Assembly (NCBI RefSeq): GCF_041410465.1
Contig: NZ_CP166961.1
Span: forward strand, 2,852,001-2,916,000
Length of the DNA stretch: 64,000 bases
Reading direction: 5' to 3'
From: Thalassotalea sp. 273M-4
GTDB taxonomy: Bacteria > Pseudomonadota > Gammaproteobacteria > Enterobacterales > Alteromonadaceae
The stretch's first letter is position 1. The number at the start of each line of letters is the position of its first letter. The translations under genes and the position numbers were made by a program. The notes under the pieces are model-generated. The model was not told where the DNA came from. It saw only the letters and a program-made list of their open reading frames with translations, and made no database searches. Of this stretch, positions 24,236-49,649 are shown piece after piece.

Positions 24236-24604
24236 TTATAGTACTTCAGGAGCTAGAGAAACGATCTTCATGAACTTTTCAGTTCTTAATTCACGTGTCA
24301 CTGGCCCGAAAATACGTGTACCAATTGGCTGTAAGTTTGCATTTAGCATTACTGCCGCGTTTCCATCAAAACGAATGGCTGAGCCATCCGGACGACGAAC
24401 GCCTTTTCTAGTGCGCACCACTACCGCATTAAGAACATCACCTTTCTTCACTTTACCGCGAGGAATTGCTTCTTTAACAGAAACTTTGATGATGTCGCCA
24501 ATACCTGCATAGCGACGGTGCGAGCCACCTAGAACCTTTATACATTGCACGCGTCGAGCGCCGCTGTTGTCAGCAACGTCTAGCTGTGATTGCATTTGGA
24601 TCAT
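24236..24604 (-). CDS. rplN: 50S ribosomal protein L14
   Basis: Conserved beta-barrel protein at the subunit interface and first gene of the spc operon. The sequence from [34 protein letters not shown] to [24 protein letters not shown] covers 122 aa (123 in E. coli). The ATG at 24604 is preferred over an upstream in-frame ATG at 24640 because it matches the family N-terminus and has GGAG nine bases upstream. Its upstream neighbour rpsQ is unusually far away (1.84 kb), so the gene must rely on its own promoter. Confidence 0.98.
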
Positions 24605-24695: not shown

Positions 24696-24724
24696 ATTAT
24701 AACACCACTTAAAAAAAAGTGGTA
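24696..24724 (-). promoter_or_regulatory. Candidate promoter of the spc operon (rplN)
   Basis: On the minus strand TATAAT (24696-24701) is followed by a GC-rich discriminator CTCGCGCCC, typical of stringently controlled ribosomal promoters. The -35 region 17 bases upstream (TACCAC) is poor. An imperfect hairpin (CCACC...GGTGG, 24666-24688) falls in the predicted leader. The rest of 24725-25118 is AT-rich with no gene I can support. Confidence 0.65.
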
Positions 24725-25274
24725 CTTTATTTAAGCAGAAAATATAAATCTTCTTATTTCCTGCTTAATAACCTCGGAAATACCGGTTACAAGTGCTTGA
24801 AATATAGAATTTCTGTTTAAAATAAACGCCAAACAAAAAATATTTAAGTATTTGATGATTGGTCGCAAAACAACGTCTCTATCTCGCAGGACAGACTCAA
24901 TCGCCGTTACAAGGCTTTATCTTGTTTGCCTGAGTATAATAAAACAACATTCGACGAAAAGTCGTAATAAATTGTAGCAATTATTTAACAACTGTTTATC
25001 AGCTAATTAACCCGATAATAATGTGTACTATTAATCAATAAGTTAGCTCAAAATAGAAAGAATCTTTATTTTAGTTTTAAGCTCGCAACAGGTGTAAATA
25101 TTTGCCAACCGCAATCGGCTTTAGTTACTAGCTCTACTTAGGACCACTAAAGTCCAAGACTTAGGCTTAGAAACCGAATTGGTATGGTCACATTCTTGAA
25201 TGTGCACTTTTAAGCAGACCATCGCTGAATGCTGTATATAAAGCCAAGACTTATAAAATTCAGCGATAAAAAAA

Positions 25275-25300
25275 GGCCCCAAAACATACAGCTTGGAGCC
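25275..25300 (-). terminator. Array terminator 1 (degenerate stem)
   Basis: GGCTCCAA pairs with TTGGGGCC on the minus strand; the middle of the stem has decayed (AAAACATACAGC on the plus strand). A T run follows. Confidence 0.65.
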
Positions 25301-25495
25301 TTCTTAGAGAACAATCAGCTTATACTTAGTTTTAGCTAAGCTTTAGTTACTAGGTCTACTTAGGTCCACTAAAGTGCAAGACTTAGTCTTAGAAACAGAA
25401 TTGGTATAGTCACATTCGTGAATGTGCATTTTTAAGCAGCCCATCGCTGAATGCTGTATATAAAGCCTAGACTTATAAAATTCAGCGATAAAAAA

Positions 25496-25520
25496 GCCCC
25501 AAGCCATACAGCTTGGAGCC
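25496..25520 (-). terminator. Array terminator 2
   Basis: Minus strand GGCTCCAAGC-tgtatg-GCTTGGGGCT followed by TTTTT; one G/C pair has been lost relative to the other copies. Confidence 0.8.
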
Positions 25521-25718
25521 TTCTTAAAGAACAATCAGCTTATACTTAGTTTTAGCTAAGCTTTAGTTACTAGGTCTACTTAGGTCCACTAAAAATTCCA
25601 AGACTTAGTCTTAGAAACAGAATTGGTATGGTCACATTCGTGAATGTGCATTTCTAAGTAGCCCATCGCTGAATGCTGTATATAAAGCCTAGACTTATAA
25701 AGTTTAACCATAAAAAAA

Positions 25719-25744
25719 GGCCCCAAGCCATACAGCTTGGAGCC
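25719..25744 (-). terminator. Array terminator 3
   Basis: Minus strand GGCTCCAAGC-tgtatg-GCTTGGGGCC followed by TTTTTTT. Confidence 0.88.
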
Positions 25745-25950
25745 TTCTTAAAGAACAATCAGCTTATAGTTAGTTTTAGCTAAGCTTTAGTTACTAGGTC
25801 TACTTAGGCCTACTTAGGTCAACTAAAGTGCAAGACTAAGGCTTAGAAACCGATTTGGTATGGTCACATTCTTTAATGTGCATTTCTAAGTAGCCCATCG
25901 CTGAATGCTTTATATAAAGCCAGGACTTATAAAATTCAGCGATAAAAAAA

Positions 25951-25976
25951 GGCCCCAAGCCATACAGCTTGGAGCC
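25951..25976 (-). terminator. Array terminator 4
   Basis: Same stem and T run as array terminator 3 (GGCTCCAAGC...GCTTGGGGCC, T7). Confidence 0.88.
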
Positions 25977-26172
25977 TTCTTAAAGAACAATCAGCTTATA
26001 CTTAGTTTTAGCTAAGCTTTAGTTACTAGGTCTACTTAGGTCCACTAAAGTGCAAGACTTAGTCTTAGAAACCGATTAGGTATGGTCACATTCTTGAATG
26101 TGCATTTCTAAGTAGCCCATCGCTGAATGCTGTATATAAAGCCAGGACTTATAAAGTTTAACCATAAAAAAA

Positions 26173-26198
26173 GGCCCCAAGCGATACAGCTTGGAGCC
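26173..26198 (-). terminator. Array terminator 5
   Basis: Same stem with a single loop change (tgtatc), followed by T7. Confidence 0.88.
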
Positions 26199-26395
26199 TT
26201 CTTAGAGAACAATCAGCTTATACTTAGTTTTAGCTAAGCTTTAGCTAAGCTTTAGTTACTAGGTCTACTAAAGTGCAAGACTAAGGCTTAGAAACCGAAT
26301 TGGTATGGTCACATTCGTGAATGTGCACTTTTAAGCAGACCATCGCTGAATGCTTTATATAAAGCCAGGACTTATAAAGTTTAACCATAAAAAAA

Positions 26396-26421
26396 GGCCC
26401 CAAGCCATACAGCTTGGAGCC
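26396..26421 (-). terminator. S10 operon terminator (native copy, after rpsQ)
   Basis: GGCTCCAAGC-tgtatg-GCTTGGGGCC with a T7 run on the minus strand, starting 25 bases after the rpsQ stop. This is the copy in its natural place at the end of the S10 operon and the probable source of the amplified ones. Confidence 0.9.
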
Positions 26422-26445
26422 TTCTTAGAGAACAATCAGCTTATA

Positions 26446-26694
26446 TTAAGCTTTAGTTACTACGTCCACTAAAGTCCAAGACTTAGTCTTAGAAATTGGT
26501 GCACATTCACGAATTGTTACTACATCACCTTCGTTACATACGTTAGCTTCATCATGCGCTTTCAACTTAGTTGAACGGATCATGAATTTACCGTAGATAG
26601 GGTGCTTTACACGACGCTCGATAAGAACAGTGATAGATTTATCCATCTTGTTACTAACAACGCGACCTTGTAGAGTACGAATAGTCTCAGTCAT
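26446..26694 (-). CDS. rpsQ: 30S ribosomal protein S17
   Basis: Primary 16S rRNA-binding OB-fold protein. It starts [37 protein letters not shown] and ends [21 protein letters not shown], typical of S17 (82 aa; 84 in E. coli). It overlaps rpmC by one base (TAATG), so the two are coupled. It is the last gene of the S10 operon. Downstream lies the tandem array built from its own 3' end. Confidence 0.99.
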
Positions 26695-31999: not shown

Positions 32000-34822
32000 A
32001 TGAAAACAATCGAAGTTCGCGGTGCTCGTACCCATAATCTAAAAAACATTGACTTAGATATCCCTAGAGACAAGTTGATTGTCATTACTGGGTTATCGGG
32101 GTCGGGCAAATCATCCTTAGCCTTTGATACCCTATATGCCGAAGGCCAGCGTCGATATGTTGAGTCTTTATCTTCTTACGCTCGTCAATTTTTATCCTTA
32201 ATGGAAAAGCCCGATGTAGATCACATAGAGGGTCTCTCACCGGCTATTTCAATAGAGCAAAAATCAACTTCGCACAATCCGCGCTCAACCGTCGGTACCA
32301 TTACCGAAATCTACGATTACCTGCGTTTACTATACGCCCGTGTTGGTGAGCCTCGCTGCCCTACCCATAAACAACCTTTGGCCGCGCAAACCATAAGTCA
32401 GATGGTTGATAAAGTTTTAGAGCTCGACGAAGGCACTAAAGTGATGTTATTGGCCCCTGTGGTGCAAAATCGGAAGGGCGAGCACATTAAGTTATTAGAT
32501 AACCTTGCCGCGCAAGGTTACATTCGTGCCCGAATAGATGGTGAAGTATGTGACTTGTCCGATCCACCGACCTTGGACTTACATAAAAAGCATACCATTG
32601 AAGTGGTAGTTGACAGACTCAAAGTACGTGATGATATTCAAACTCGTTTAGCCGAATCATTTGAAACGGCACTATCTCTTACCGATGGTATCGCCGCCAT
32701 TGCCTTTATGGATGCGCCTGATAAGCCTGAACTTCTTTTTTCCGCAAACTTTGCCTGTCCGCAATGTGGCTACAGTATGCAAAAGCCAGAGCCTCGATTA
32801 TTCTCTTTTAATAACCCTGCAGGGGCTTGTCAAAGTTGTGATGGCTTAGGTATTAAACAGTTCTTTGACCCACATCGGGTGATCAGTAACCCAGAACTAA
32901 GCCTGGCAGGTGGTGCGATTAGAGGCTGGGATAAACGCAATTTTTATTACTTTCAAATGTTAACGTCATTGGCAGATCACTACGGTTTTGACTTAAATAA
33001 ACCGTTTCAACAACTTACCGATGAACAGCAACAGCTGATCTTAAATGGTAGCGGTGATGAAGACATTCAGTTCAAATATATGAACGATAGAGGTGACATC
33101 GTTGTTCGCAAGCACCCGTTTGAAGGGATTTTGGTGAATATGGACAGGCGCTATCGCGAAACCGAATCGAATGCGGTGCGTGAAGAGCTGTCTAAATACT
33201 TAAACTCACAAGCGTGTCCAAGCTGTGAGGGCAGTCGTTTGCGCCAAGAAGCGCGCAATGTCTTTATTGATGATAAGCCTTTGCATCATATTACTGAATA
33301 CTCTATTGCCGACTCTGCTCAGTTTTTTAGTCAATTAGCGCTTGTAGGTCAACGCCAGCAAATTGCCGAGAAAATATTAAAAGAAATTAATGACCGTTTA
33401 GGCTTCTTAGTTAATGTTGGTCTCAATTACCTGAGCCTGTCTCGAAGCGCCGATACCTTATCAGGTGGCGAAGCGCAGCGTATTCGACTTGCTTCTCAAA
33501 TTGGTGCCGGCTTAGTGGGGGTCATGTACGTATTAGATGAACCGTCCATTGGTTTGCATCAACGCGATAACGAACGCTTATTAAAAACCCTTATTCATCT
33601 TCGTGATTTGGGTAATACGGTCATTGTGGTAGAACACGATGAAGACGCGATTAAAGAAGCCGACCACATTATCGATATTGGCCCAGGGGCGGGTGTACAT
33701 GGCGGTCAAGTTATTGCCCAAGGGAGCTTACCAGATATTCTAGCCAATCCTCATTCAATCACTGGTAAGTATTTATCTGGCGAAGAGTTCATTGCGGTTC
33801 CTAAAAAACGTACACCGATAACATTAGACAAAGTGGTAAACTTAACCGGCGCTACAGGTAATAACCTGAAGAATGTCGATTTAACCATTCCAGTTGGTTT
33901 AATGACCTGTGTTACCGGTGTTTCAGGCTCGGGTAAATCGACCCTAATTAATGATACTTTATATAAGTTGGCGCATATTGAATTAAACCGCGCCACCTTA
34001 GATGAACCTGCGCCGTATAAGAGTATTAGTGGGCTTGAACATTTAGATAAAGTTATCGACATAGACCAAAGTCCTATTGGGCGAACCCCACGTTCAAACC
34101 CGGCCACCTATACCGGTATATTTACCTCGATTCGTGATATTTTTGCCGCTACTCAAGAATCTCGCTCACGTGGTTATAAACCAGGTCGCTTTAGTTTTAA
34201 CGTAAAAGGTGGGCGTTGTGAAGCCTGTCAGGGTGATGGCGTTATCAAAGTTGAAATGCACTTCTTACCCGATGTGTATGTACCATGTGATGTTTGTAAA
34301 GGCCAACGCTATAACCGTGAAACCCTAGAAATTCGCTACAAGGGAAAAAACATTCACGAAGTGTTGGATATGACCATCGAAAACGCCTTTGACTTTTTTC
34401 ATGCCATTCCAGCGGTTAAGCGTAAATTACAAACTTTAATGGATGTGGGCTTGTCTTATATTAAGCTAGGCCAGTCTGCTACCACCCTATCTGGTGGTGA
34501 AGCGCAGAGGGTGAAACTGTCAAAAGAGTTATCTAAGCGTGATACCGGCCAAACCTTGTATATTTTAGATGAGCCCACCACGGGATTACACTTTCACGAT
34601 ATACGCCAATTAATGACGGTACTTCATCGCCTGCGCGATCATGGTAATACCATTGTTATCATTGAACATAATTTAGATGTGATAAAAACCGCCGATTGGA
34701 TTGTAGACCTTGGCCCTGAAGGCGGCTCTGGTGGCGGTGAAATTTTAGTGGCTGGTACACCAGAAGAGGTTGCTGAGCATAAAGCGTCTCATACCGCGAG
34801 GTTTTTAAAGCCGCTACTTTAA
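32000..34822 (+). CDS. uvrA: Excinuclease ABC subunit A
   Basis: Damage-recognition ATPase of nucleotide excision repair. Of its 940 aa, two ABC modules are visible: Walker [15 protein letters not shown] (about residues 31-44) and [15 protein letters not shown] (about 640). Signature motifs are LSGGEAQRI and [11 protein letters not shown], with Walker [15 protein letters not shown] and [14 protein letters not shown]. Zinc modules are CPQCGYSM...CQSCDG and CEACQGDG...CDVCKG. The ATG has GGAAGGAAG upstream. It is divergent from rpsJ. No LexA box of the CTGT-N8-ACAG type is visible in the 31391-31999 gap. Confidence 0.99.
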
Positions 34823-34835
34823 GCTATCGCTAATA

Positions 34836-34939
34836 CTGTAAGGCTGTAAGGCTGTAAGGCTGTAAGGCTGTAAGGCTGTAAGGCTGTAAGGCTGTAAGGC
34901 TGTAAGGCTGTAAGGCTGTAAGGCTGTAAGGCTGTAAGG
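34836..34939. repeat. Thirteen perfect copies of an 8-bp tandem repeat
   Basis: CTGTAAGG is repeated 13 times without a mismatch (104 bases), starting 14 bases after the uvrA stop codon. Such perfect microsatellites change copy number by slippage. It is outside any convincing reading frame, so it is not an obvious coding phase switch. The gap 34823-35225 holds this repeat and two short hairpin repeats. Confidence 0.97.
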
Positions 34940-35019
34940 CAAAGTGTGCTCAAACCAAATTATTAGTAAAGCCAAAATATCAGACAAAGAGTGCCGTTAC
35001 ACCTCCATAGAAAGAGAAA

Positions 35020-42727: not shown

Positions 42728-42877
42728 AGCTTTTTCCCATCGTTGATATTATTAACAATCTGATAAGCATAGACTATAAATCAAACATTTAAAGCAAGTA
42801 TAGAGTTCTAACCGAATGAGTTTTTCAGCTTAAATCTGTAATTTTTAGCACTACATTTTTTTATCTCAGAAAGCAAG

Positions 42878-42899
42878 AAAGAGCGCCGAAGCGCTCTTT
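42878..42899 (-). terminator. Duplicate tuf-type terminator
   Basis: AAAGAGCGC-cgaa-GCGCTCTTT, identical in stem and loop to the terminator of tuf copy 2 (48409-48430), and followed by the similar ATTTAGGTTTGGT. It belongs with the tuf relic at 43029-43072. Confidence 0.75.
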
Positions 42900-42934
42900 T
42901 ATTTAGGTTTGGTTTATACCAAATCTATCGATGA

Positions 42935-43028: not shown

Positions 43029-43072
43029 TTATTCGATGATTTTAGATACAACACCAGCACCTACGGTACGGC
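43029..43072 (-). pseudogene. Relic of a tuf 3' end
   Basis: 44 bases matching the last 14 codons and stop of tuf copy 2 (48465-48508) with one mismatch; they read ...[17 protein letters not shown] on the minus strand. The matching tuf-type terminator lies downstream (42878-42899). The neighbouring complete tuf copy 1 ends differently at nucleotide level, so the relic marks a past duplication or recombination at the tuf 3' end. Confidence 0.85.
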
Positions 43073-43257: not shown

Positions 43258-44442
43258 TTATTCAATAATTTTTGAAACAACACCAGCACCTACGGTACGG
43301 CCACCTTCACGGATAGCGAAACGTAAACCTTCGTCCATCGCAATTGGGTTGATTAGCTCTACAACAAACTTTAAGTTGTCGCCTGGCATTACCATTTCTA
43401 CGCCTTCTGGTAACTCAACTGCACCAGTGATGTCCGTTGTACGGAAGTAGAATTGTGGACGGTAACCTTTGAAGAATGGCGTGTGACGACCACCTTCATC
43501 TTTCGTTAGTACGTATACTTCTGACTCAAACTTAGTGTGTGGCTTGATTGAACCAGGCTTACACAATACTTGACCACGTTGTACTTCATCACGCTTAGTA
43601 CCACGAAGAAGAACACCACAGTTCTCACCCGCACGACCTTCGTCTAGAAGCTTACGGAACATCTCTACACCAGTACATGTTGTCGTTGTTGTATCTTTGA
43701 TACCAACGATTTCTACGTCATCACCTACACGTACGATACCACGCTCAACACGACCTGTTACTACTGTACCACGACCTTGGATTGAGAATACGTCTTCGAT
43801 TGGAAGAATGAAATCACCATCGATTGCACGCTCTGGCTCTGGGATGTATGTGTCTAGCTCGTTTGCTAGCTCAAGAATCTTCTCTTCCCACTTCGCTTCA
43901 CCGTTCAATGCACCTAGTGCTGAACCTTGAATGATTGGTAAGTCATCACCTGGGAAGTCGTATTCTGAAAGAAGTTCACGTACTTCCATCTCTACTAGCT
44001 CTAGTAACTCTTCGTCGTCTACCATGTCACATTTGTTTAGGAATACGATGATGTAAGGTACACCAACCTGACGAGAAAGAAGGATGTGCTCACGTGTTTG
44101 TGGCATTGGGCCGTCTGTTGCCGCTACTACTAAGATAGCGCCGTCCATTTGAGCTGCACCTGTGATCATGTTTTTAACGTAATCGGCGTGACCTGGACAG
44201 TCTACGTGCGCGTAGTGACGGTCTGCTGTGTCGTACTCAATGTGAGACGTGTTGATTGTGATACCACGCTCACGCTCTTCTGGAGCGTTATCGATTTGAG
44301 CAAAATCGCGCAGTTCACCACCGTGAGTTTTAGTAAGTACTGCAGAGATAGCAGCTGTTAGAGTTGTTTTACCGTGGTCAACGTGACCGATAGTACCAAC
44401 GTTAACGTGCGGTTTCGAACGTTCAAATTTTTCTTTAGCCAT
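43258..44442 (-). CDS. tuf: Elongation factor Tu, copy 1
   Basis: GTPase that delivers aminoacyl-tRNA to the ribosome. The 394 aa start [32 protein letters not shown] with the P loop GHVDHGKT. Switch regions [12 protein letters not shown] and [13 protein letters not shown] follow, with NKCDMVDD for guanine binding and the C-terminal [15 protein letters not shown]. The protein is identical to copy 2 at 48465-49649. The ATG at 44442 is chosen by family start; a longer frame upstream is not used. It has its own promoter and stands alone, divergent from fusA2. Confidence 0.98.
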
Positions 44443-44597
44443 TTTTAAATACCTATTAAAAGTGTTATTTCGACGGGTGGTGCCCGACATTTGCTTACAT
44501 ATATGTATTTTGTATTTGCGCGAATCGTTACCCCAAAATGGTTATGTTTTTATCTAAAAACAACCGGATGTGACAACGAGTCAAATTTACGGGGCAC

Positions 44598-44830: not shown

Positions 44831-46918
44831 ATGGCAGATTTATCAAAATACAGAAACATTGGTATTTTCGCTCACGTTGATGCGGGTAAAACCACAACAA
44901 CTGAACGTATCCTTAAACTTACAGGTAAGATCCACAAGCTTGGTGAGGTTCATGATGGTGAGTCAACAACTGACTTCATGGAACAAGAAGCAGAACGTGG
45001 TATTACTATCCAGTCTGCTGCTGTAACTTGTGAATGGAAAAAACACCGTTTTAACGTTATCGACACCCCGGGCCACGTTGACTTCACTGTTGAAGTTTAC
45101 CGTTCATTAAAAGTTCTAGACGGTGGTATCGGTGTATTCTGTGGTTCTGGTGGTGTTGAACCACAATCAGAAACCAACTGGCGTTACGCGAACGAGTCAA
45201 AAGTTGCTCGTTTGATCTTCGTTAACAAGCTAGACCGTTTAGGTGCTAACTTCTTCCGCGTTAAAGATCAAGTTAAGAAAGTACTAGGTGCTAACCCTCT
45301 TGTTATGACTTTACCAATCGGTGAAGAAGATAACTTCGTAGGTGTAGTAGACGTATTATCTCAAAAAGCCTACGTATGGGATGACTCAGGTCAACCAGAA
45401 AACTACGAAATCACTGACATTCCAGCAGACATGGTAGAGCAAGCAGCAGAATACCGTGAAATGTTAATCGAAACTGCTCTAGAAGCAGACGAAGACATGC
45501 TAATGGATTACCTAGAAGGTGAACTAGACCCAACTGACGAGCAAATCAAAGCGTGTATCCGTAAAGGTACTAACGAATTGTTGTTCTTCCCAACATACTG
45601 TGGTTCTGCGTTCAAAAACAAAGGTATGCAGCTTCTTCTTGATGCTGTTGTTGATTACCTACCTTCACCAACAGAAGTTCCACCTCAGCCGTTAACTGAC
45701 GAAGAAGGTAACCCAACGGGTGAATTCGCTATCGTTGACGCAGAAGAGCCGTTCCGTGCGCTTGCATTCAAAATTATGGATGACCGTTTCGGTGCCCTAA
45801 CTTTCGTACGTGTATACTCTGGTCGTCTTAAGAAAGGTGATACCATTCTTAACTCATTCACCGGAAAAACTGAGCGTGTTGGCCGTATGGTTGAGATGCA
45901 AGCAGATGACCGTACTGAACTTACCGAAGCACAGGCAGGTGACATTCTTGCTATCGTTGGTATGAAAAACGTTCAAACTGGTCACACTTTATGTGAAGTT
46001 AAGAACCCTTGTACTCTTGAAGCAATGGTATTCCCAGAGCCGGTAATCTCTATCGCTGTATCTCCAAAAGAAAAAGGTGGTGCAGAGAAAATGGGTATTG
46101 CTATCGGTAAAATGGTTGCAGAAGATCCAACTTTCCAAGTTGAAACTGACGAAGATTCAGGTGAAACCATCCTTAAAGGTATGGGTGAGCTTCACTTAGA
46201 CATCAAAGTAGACATCCTTAAGCGTACTTACGGTGTTGAACTAGAAGTTGGTAAACCACAAGTTGCTTACCGTGAAACAATCACAATGCCAATTGAAGAT
46301 TCTTACACCCATAAGAAGCAATCAGGTGGTTCTGGTCAGTTCGGTAAAATCGATTACCGCATCAAGCCAGGTGAGCCAAACACTGGTTTCAAATTCACTT
46401 CTACCGTTGTTGGTGGTAACGTACCTAAAGAATTCTTCCCAGCGATCGAAAAAGGTTTCGCATCAATGATGGAAGAAGGTCCAGTTGCAGGTTTCCCTGT
46501 ACTAGACGTTGAAGTTGAACTATTTGACGGTGGTTACCACGCAGTTGACTCATCAGCAGTTGCATTCGAAATCGCAGCTCGCGGTGCATTCCGTCAATCA
46601 ATGCCTAAAGCTGGTGCTCAATTACTAGAGCCAGTGATGAAGGTTGACGTGTTCACTCCAGAAGACAACGTTGGTGATGTTATCGGTGACTTAAACCGTC
46701 GTCGTGGTATGATCAAAGACCAAGAAGCTGGCACTACAGGTGTTCGCATCAAGGCTGACGTACCTCTTTCTGAAATGTTTGGTTACATCGGTCACTTACG
46801 TACAATCACTTCAGGTCGTGGTCAATTCTCAATGGAATTCAGCCACTACTCAGCAGCTCCACAAAACATTGCAGAGCAAGTTGTAGCTGAAGTTAAAGAG
46901 CGTAACGCTAAGAAGTAA
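44831..46918 (+). CDS. fusA2: Second elongation factor G (FusA2/EF-G2)
   Basis: Translational GTPase paralogous to EF-G (695 aa). The P loop [16 protein letters not shown] is at residues 14-29, switch II in [26 protein letters not shown] for guanine recognition, and the switch I region reads [16 protein letters not shown]. It differs clearly from the str-operon FusA in domains G and II. Its role (translocation, recycling or stress) is not determined in this organism. Codon use is strongly biased to ribosomal-type codons (GGT, CGT, AAC), more so than in fusA. It is divergent from tuf copy 1. Confidence 0.93.
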
Positions 46919-48464: not shown

Positions 48465-49649
48465 TTATTCGATGATTTTAGATACAACACCAGCACCTAC
48501 AGTACGGCCACCTTCACGGATAGCGAAACGTAAACCTTCGTCCATCGCGATTGGGTTGATTAGCTCTACAACAAACTTTAAGTTGTCGCCTGGCATTACC
48601 ATTTCTACGCCTTCTGGTAACTCAACTGCACCAGTGATGTCCGTTGTACGGAAGTAGAATTGTGGACGGTAACCTTTGAAGAATGGCGTGTGACGACCAC
48701 CTTCATCTTTAGTCAGTACGTATACTTCTGACTCAAACTTAGTGTGTGGCTTGATTGAACCAGGCTTACACAATACTTGACCACGTTGTACTTCATCACG
48801 CTTAGTACCACGAAGAAGAACACCACAGTTCTCACCCGCACGACCTTCGTCTAGAAGCTTACGGAACATCTCTACACCAGTACATGTTGTCGTTGTTGTA
48901 TCTTTGATACCAACGATTTCTACGTCATCACCTACACGTACGATACCACGCTCAACACGACCTGTTACTACTGTACCACGACCTTGGATTGAGAATACGT
49001 CTTCGATTGGAAGAATGAAATCACCATCGATTGCACGCTCTGGCTCTGGGATGTATGTGTCTAGCTCGTTTGCTAGCTCAAGAATCTTCTCTTCCCACTT
49101 CGCTTCACCGTTCAATGCACCTAGTGCTGAACCTTGAATGATTGGTAAGTCATCACCTGGGAAGTCGTATTCTGAAAGAAGTTCACGTACTTCCATCTCT
49201 ACTAGCTCTAGTAACTCTTCGTCGTCTACCATGTCACATTTGTTTAGGAATACGATGATGTAAGGTACACCAACCTGACGAGAAAGAAGGATGTGCTCAC
49301 GTGTTTGTGGCATTGGGCCGTCTGTTGCCGCTACTACTAAGATAGCGCCGTCCATTTGAGCTGCACCTGTGATCATGTTTTTAACGTAATCGGCGTGACC
49401 TGGACAGTCTACGTGCGCGTAGTGACGGTCTGCTGTATCGTACTCAATGTGAGACGTGTTGATTGTGATACCACGCTCACGCTCTTCTGGAGCGTTATCG
49501 ATTTGAGCGAAGTCACGTAATTCACCACCGTGAGTTTTTGTAAGTACTGCAGAGATAGCAGCTGTTAGAGTTGTTTTACCGTGGTCAACGTGACCGATAG
49601 TACCAACGTTAACGTGCGGTTTCGAACGTTCAAATTTTTCTTTAGCCAT
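48465..49649 (-). CDS. tuf: Elongation factor Tu, copy 2 (str operon)
   Basis: Protein identical to copy 1 at 43258-44442 (394 aa, GHVDHGKT P loop, NKCD). At nucleotide level the two copies differ by a few synonymous changes, clustered toward the ends (for example the last codons and the GELRDFAQ region). It is the last gene of rpsL-rpsG-fusA-tuf. An eight-base-pair stem TTGCACAG/CTGTGCAA (49675-49697) lies in the 57-base fusA-tuf gap. Confidence 0.99.

Follow-up and report, generated by a model that had tools for sequence, protein, structure and literature searches.

Tandem copies of the rpsQ 3' end and its terminator where the S10 and spc operons meet, with similar duplications behind tuf and a second EF-G gene

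Ribosomal genes and those for elongation factors serve as a reference for conserved sequence and gene order, and the locus described here raises the question of how partial copies of such a gene come to be lined up directly behind it. rpsQ closes the S10 operon and rplN opens the spc operon, a junction at which one would in any case expect a terminator and a promoter. In the window, by which we mean the whole stretch of 64,000 nucleotides analysed, the two genes are separated by a tandem array whose units derive from the 3' end of rpsQ and its terminator.

Layout of the array in the window

TRF describes the array as head-to-tail copies of one unit (period 222, 6.0 copies, 91% matches, score 2074; feature coordinates are collected in Table 1), a repeat search of the window gives start-to-start unit spacings of 222, 220, 224, 232, 233 and 201, and the end-to-end distances of the six rpsQ-tail copies are about 200, 233, 232, 221, 220 and 221 bases. 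Six tandem units of about 200-233 bp had been proposed in a preliminary description, which traced them to the tail and the terminator of rpsQ; both points hold, with spacings of 201-233 bp and with an alignment of the units to rpsQ that agrees with this origin. Read on the minus strand, rpsQ is followed by its own terminator, by the six tail copies and then by rplN, from which the array end is separated by about 510 bases whose ORFs are all short and chance-like. An intact terminator hairpin lies 3' of tail copies 1-5 and is missing from the sixth, at the rplN-side edge, so that the proposal of one hairpin per unit stands for the first five copies and fails for the last. All six hairpins of the junction have the form of an intrinsic terminator, G+C-rich and followed by a T-run; their energies lie between -17.8 and -24.2 kcal/mol, and every one of them beats 200 shuffles. 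Units of such arrays also take in spacer DNA beyond the T-run, which is repeated at up to 98-99%.

Table 1. Features of the rpsQ-rplN junction and of the tuf tail copy (positions in the window)
Feature	Position	Strand	Basis or measure
rplN (L14), first spc-operon gene	24236..24604	-	ORF
Probable -10 element TATAAT in GTGTTATAATCTCGCGCC, putative spc promoter	24696..24701	-	pattern upstream of rplN
Whole array, six periods including last 11 nt of rpsQ	25118..26456	-	TRF
Tail copy 6, array edge, without terminator	25119..25173	-	sequence, unit alignment
Duplicated terminator after copy 5, weakest	25270..25307	-	-17.8 kcal/mol
Tail copy 5	25340..25395	-	sequence, unit alignment
Duplicated terminator after copy 4	25490..25527	-	-21.7 kcal/mol
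Tail copy 4	25560..25617	-	sequence, unit alignment
Duplicated terminator after copy 3	25714..25749	-	-24.2 kcal/mol
Tail copy 3, internal repeat twice	25781..25849	-	sequence, unit alignment
Duplicated terminator after copy 2	25946..25981	-	-24.2 kcal/mol
Tail copy 2, 10-nt internal duplication	26013..26071	-	sequence, unit alignment
Duplicated terminator after copy 1	26168..26203	-	-23.4 kcal/mol
Tail copy 1	26246..26294	-	89.8% over 49 nt to own rpsQ tail
rpsQ own intrinsic terminator	26391..26426	-	-24.2 kcal/mol, z -5.25
rpsQ (S17), last S10-operon gene, intact, 82 aa	26446..26694	-	ORF and ortholog matches
Single tuf (EF-Tu) tail copy, about 190 nt behind tuf (stop at 43258)	43029..43072	-	sequence

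The units are mosaic. Units U1, U2 and U4 carry the linker GGTTAAACT and units U3, U5 and U6 the linker CGCTGAATT, which together with the downstream ATTCAGCGAT forms a perfect 10-base inverted repeat; the repeat is perfect in three of the six linkers and imperfect otherwise, and its perfection would fit template switching at hairpins. These two alternating variants and the ten-base internal duplication, to which attention had been drawn earlier, are both present. Pairwise identity among the six units is 89.8-95.9%, and 110 of 171 pairs of informative sites fail the four-gamete test; because these pairs are incompatible with a single tree, the window units have probably exchanged segments, and the earlier argument for repeated exchange rather than a single event is borne out. 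Over the last 33 nt the window copies are on average 82% identical to their own rpsQ, and the best of them reaches 87.9%. They are more diverged from rpsQ than the copies of most aligned genomes, the best copy being at least 93.9% identical in 14 of 19, and a general decay of such copies is not supported.

Because a predicted promoter element before rplN is conserved, the array most likely sits between two transcription units, S10 and spc, and not inside one ribosomal operon as first described: a TATAAT-CGCG element occurs upstream of rplN in 48 of the 49 genomes with rplN in reach, at 93-177 bases from the gene among the 45 matches listed. Copies of the rpsQ tail are commoner where rplN is not close, at 18 of 49 separated against two of 32 adjacent junctions (Fisher p 0.0016, in a test that ignores phylogeny), with junction classes set after subtracting the array's own length; uncorrected classes gave 20/51 against 0/30. 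The window is one of the two adjacent junctions with copies (net gap 539), and on account of these two, the idea that copies occur only where the link between S10 and spc is broken was abandoned. Relatives with a short, repeat-free gap had been named beforehand as grounds for doubting the array if it were also misassembled: such relatives exist, 30 of the 32 adjacent junctions being without copies, and there is no sign of misassembly here.

Tail copies in relatives and behind other genes

Among 81 genomes with an S17 identity of at least 80% (three of 84 were dropped, being cut by contig edges), copies of the genome's own rpsQ tail lie behind rpsQ in 20, which belong to four genera and include the window genome, and 61 are without a recognised copy. 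The carriers are 10 of the 15 genomes of the window's genus, the window included, and 10 genomes of other genera; with further copies behind tuf and the second EF-G gene, the array is not the lone event that it had been taken for. TRF finds arrays behind rpsQ with periods of 152-229 in twelve copy-bearing genomes and with a period of 67 in G444; an array in G007 (period 182) is without the rpsQ tail, and the remaining rpsQ loci have no repeats or short ones with periods of 52-102 (181 loci, some genomes twice). In a control on 72 loci (1.05 Mb, 5,476 ORF ends), all centred on rpsQ and nearly all from other genera, with L127 and L128 Colwellia-like, there was one match, a non-coding repeat in Alteromonas lipotrueiana.

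The hairpin has been retained along with the tail. A terminator-like hairpin of -8 kcal/mol or better with a T-run follows 34 of 42 rpsQ copies, against four of 61 shuffled stretches (the one counted for copies 2 and 3 of G012 may be part of an insertion), and each of the eight copies without it is the last or only copy of its array. In G004, G012 and G008 (L048, L051 and L053) we observed an insertion of about 75-85 nt after the same AAAG of the rpsQ-tail copy, whose stems vary while the loops are conserved (TCCAT, CCCTGCGGG-like and TCCAGACAA); tuf-tail copies, too, are interrupted by hairpin-rich insertions of a similar kind. The idea that the hairpin loops form a family spread over the genome was considered and set aside, their counts being low (CATCCATG 37 times against 23 expected by base composition in 864 kb). 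A different repeat of about 100 bp (TGCGAGACTAAAG...) follows the rpsQ copy in L055 (G006), 200-511 bases behind rpsQ, and in L054 (G011), and is tandem in G006.

The tuf copy of the window is followed, as read from the sequence, by a terminator-like hairpin near 42876-42900. In the window's genus, tuf-tail copies were found at eight of 25 tested ends, in six genomes (not every tuf match had a locus; 28 of the 30 loci returned were entered, 25 of them with a usable end), and tail copies of the second EF-G gene (fusA2) at four of 13 valid ends, a count that leaves out L386, where a neighbouring ORF was tested, and in which the G010 match (L378) was scored from a short copy ORF, the copy being also seen at the gene itself. 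The nearest EF-G tail copy equals the gene at 60 of 60 positions in G010 and likewise in G003. Matches to the tuf tail at copy-like spacing were obtained in three of the 20 other-genus genomes searched (G035, G052 and G055). No tail copies were found in the window's genus at 15 groL ends or at 13 valid rplS ends (L400 and L405 were excluded, a neighbouring ORF having been tested).

Scans of gene ends, from which matches at tRNAs and inside long ORFs were filtered out, gave five matches in 864 kb (about 26%; 2,726 ORF ends) of the window's own genome, G000, where rpsQ and tuf are the real genes; eight in 400 kb (8%; 1,173 ORF ends) of G010, among them rpsQ, three tuf genes and EF-G; and eight in 400 kb (12%; 1,426 ORF ends) of G004, among them rpsQ and tuf. 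The other matches were judged to be short ORFs and not real gene ends (L277, L317 and L339 were inspected). The genes echoed in this way, rpsQ, tuf and the second EF-G gene, all lie in or beside the ribosomal cluster, so that expression and location are indistinguishable here. High expression alone was rejected as the cause, since groL and rplS, for which high expression is likewise expected, have no copies, even though groL is a mere 28 kb or so away from rpsQ in G000. At least three tuf genes are present in the same genome, two in the window (43258-44490 and 48465-49649) and one beyond it (G000:C1:2918309); near the ribosomal cluster there is also the second EF-G gene, on the plus strand at 44831-46918 of the window (Pfam was run on the G010 homologue).

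Probable exchange between gene tails and their copies

Copies track their own genome rather than the orthologous copies of relatives. At sites where the own rpsQ differs from that of a congener, the copies of genus g1 match their own gene in 1725 cells, the other gene in 11 and neither in 69; the corresponding counts are 345, 7 and 13 in g39 and 2, 0 and 2 in g31, the cells not being independent. G041 was aligned and left out of this count; G444, with a run of N in its array, was left out of both the count and the unit alignment. A cruder best-match test is mixed because sister genomes share tails: for the tail, the best own copy beats the best foreign one in eight of 19 genomes, with four ties, and for the terminator stretch the own copy wins in 13 of 19.

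The copies also have flanks of their own. Those of g1 carry the palindrome CACATTC-NN(N)-GAATGTG followed by NCANNACC (the exact pattern in five of 15 genomes, variants in further aligned ones); this palindrome and its flank are found on copies across species and are absent from the genes, and an insertion after AAGTCT is common to g1 and Colwellia units. Since such copy-specific flanks are common to several species, the copies look older than the species, and they seem to be old duplications under concerted evolution, in which the gene overwrote the 3' part of the copy or the copy that of the gene. If each lineage had made new duplications independently, however, the copies would also match their own gene, and the shared flanks alone argue for the old origin. 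The hairpin pattern with a 3-nt centre had no match in the window's own genome, and it is unfit there, the window's own centre being 2 nt. A peptide encoded by the array was considered and dropped, as the short ORFs are not frame-conserved and the units of G014, G004 and G003 have a different centre length.

Terminators have been reshuffled as well. The three tuf loci of G010 show two terminator types in the orders B-A-B, A-B-B and A-B over gene and copies, and from these mixed orders we conclude that gene and copies traded 3' flanks; exchange between units is thus seen in the tuf terminators as in the four-gamete failures. A weak hint of the same trading comes from g1, where the rpsQ 3' flank of G011 is nearer to the copy flank of G006 (0.839) than to its gene flank (0.774). 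In G013, S17 has four extra C-terminal residues (TLIK) that its copies encode as well, while in G003 a similar extension is confined to the copies; this is no more than suggestive of a transfer from array to gene.

Origin of the arrays and their place among known systems

We consider it probable that the arrays result from tandem duplication of operon 3' ends and have been kept by recombination between the gene tail and its copies. What has the best support is an echo of operon ends that perpetuates itself. The seed would be a tandem duplication of the rpsQ 3' end (the last 50-75 nt or so of coding sequence, the stop codon, the terminator and some spacer), and judging from the inferred age this first duplication would predate the separation of the species in the genus. 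Later growth, shrinkage and homogenisation would have followed by homologous recombination, of gene tail with copy and of copy with copy. A crossover or conversion within the shared tail would leave S17 readable if the copy encodes the same residues, and would therefore be tolerated; each exchange would make the tail of a copy, in many cases together with the terminator, equal to that of the gene, or would do so in the opposite direction. Slippage and template switching are probably favoured by the terminator hairpins and the short palindromes. The result would be a series of intrinsic terminators, redundant with one another, at the S10-spc junction, and the same process would act at tuf and the second EF-G gene.

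Such redundancy could itself have been favoured, if the extra hairpins form a bank under selection that stops read-through from a very strong operon. The good hairpins behind most copies, with the failures confined to last or only copies, would agree with this, as would the excess of copies at separated junctions; that excess, however, comes from a comparison which ignores phylogeny and to which the window is itself an adjacent exception, selection on terminators alone needs no copied or identical coding tail, and the single terminator of the rpsQ gene is already strong, at -12.5 to -26.2 kcal/mol in 19 of 19 genes. We find this reading doubtful as an explanation of the arrays, and any benefit of the extra terminators is putative. 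It is improbable that the units are a tandem set of small RNA genes that would each begin with a hairpin and end in a terminator. The palindrome at the start of the g1 unit is conserved, terminators are present, and unit c1, folded together with its terminator, is more stable than its shuffles (z -3.84), but ten unit bodies without the terminator gave z values of +0.41 to -3.58, against -1.5 to -4.7 for five rpsQ coding controls, and a structured RNA was rejected because the bodies fold no better than these controls. A sigma-70 consensus scan detected no promoter in the array (two sites in the region against 6.5 in shuffles), and no Rfam match reached the gathering score there.

Islands that integrate at the end of a gene typically leave its 3' part duplicated, and this resemblance, together with recurring copy starts at -33 and -50 in rpsQ and at -44 in tuf, is what would recommend site-specific elements that left accreted attachment sites behind rpsQ, tuf and the second EF-G gene. 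The units, however, are of variable length (152-233 bp), without a recognisable gene, and no common core was seen in the three genes. Accretion driven by a tyrosine integrase was rejected, since in 18 of the 20 copy-bearing genomes the Phage_integrase matches (PF00589) listed for the rpsQ contig include none closer to rpsQ than 20 kb; the nearest matches lie at about 22 kb in G320 and about 36 kb in G003 and G241. We regard such elements as very improbable, and hold the same, more firmly still, of retroposition, in which terminated mRNA 3' ends would be reverse transcribed and inserted: the copies do end in a terminator and source transcripts are expected to be abundant, yet spacer beyond the T-run is repeated too, and the rpsQ units of the window's own genome lie only beside rpsQ. 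That genome is a single contig of 3,372,503 bases in which all seven unit matches fall in the array, a distribution at odds with the scattered copies of a dispersed REP/MITE family, and a mobile dispersed unit was rejected for this reason. Tandem repeats may be misassembled, and copy number is known here from the assembly alone; an artefact is nevertheless extremely unlikely, as the units differ at many sites, the assembly is in one contig, and other one-contig genomes of the genus (e.g. G014, G004 and G003) have different arrays of their own.

Tandem duplication followed by recombination between gene and copies has parallels in known systems. REPs are dispersed over the genome; like REP/BIME clusters, the arrays are intergenic, hairpin-rich, variable in number and placed at operon ends, and unlike them the unit is confined to its parent gene and stems from coding sequence. 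pilS of Neisseria undergoes gene conversion from silent cassettes. vlsE of Borrelia is another such system (PMC11499132). As in these two systems, partial copies stand in tandem beside an intact gene, with no promoter by the sigma-70 consensus scan, and seemingly exchange sequence with it; unlike in them, the copies are 3' tails with the terminator of essential translation genes, and exchange homogenises instead of diversifying and has no antigenic role. As in the concerted evolution of tuf and other repeats, copies within a genome are more alike than between species and recombination is probably the driver; here, however, what is echoed behind the parent gene is an end of 30-60 nt and not the gene as a whole. 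Gene conversion between duplicate tuf genes is mentioned in PMC8046335. The passages of that article on the same ribosomal cluster present operon junctions as sites of gene insertion and synteny loss and treat gene-level events, whereas here a sub-gene tail is duplicated; 'terminator', 'Colwellia' and 'Alteromonadales' do not occur in its main text. No description of such arrays was found in the open-access literature, as judged from titles and abstract starts among the matches listed; tandem repeats, concerted evolution and terminators are known, and their recurrent combination behind core translation genes appears to be new.

It is conceivable, although we think it unlikely, that the copies form a Colwellia-type recombinational 3'-end reservoir, in which silent cassettes let rpsQ, tuf and the second EF-G gene swap terminator, 3' UTR and last codons in frame and so allow a modular evolution of 3' ends. 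If 3' ends are echoed, homogenised and swapped, even core translation genes recombine with their own fragments, and caution is due in treating the 3' ends of such genes as a matter of simple vertical descent. The several genes and genera would provide natural replicates for the study of terminator duplication, of selected redundancy and of the minimal homology for bacterial gene conversion.

Some repeats were also observed away from these genes. Thirteen perfect copies of CTGTAAGG lie at 34836-34940 of the window, just behind a uvrA-like ORF (32000-34822), and an array in G004 (L339:11878-12772), with a period of 252 and a hairpin per unit, has no recognised gene end upstream. In the window's own genome, TRF reports tRNA tandem arrays, another local amplification, at L254:7708-8326, L255:27-560, L256:17279-17696 and L265:333-649, which by reading of the sequence hold about six, three, four and three tRNA-like units, respectively.
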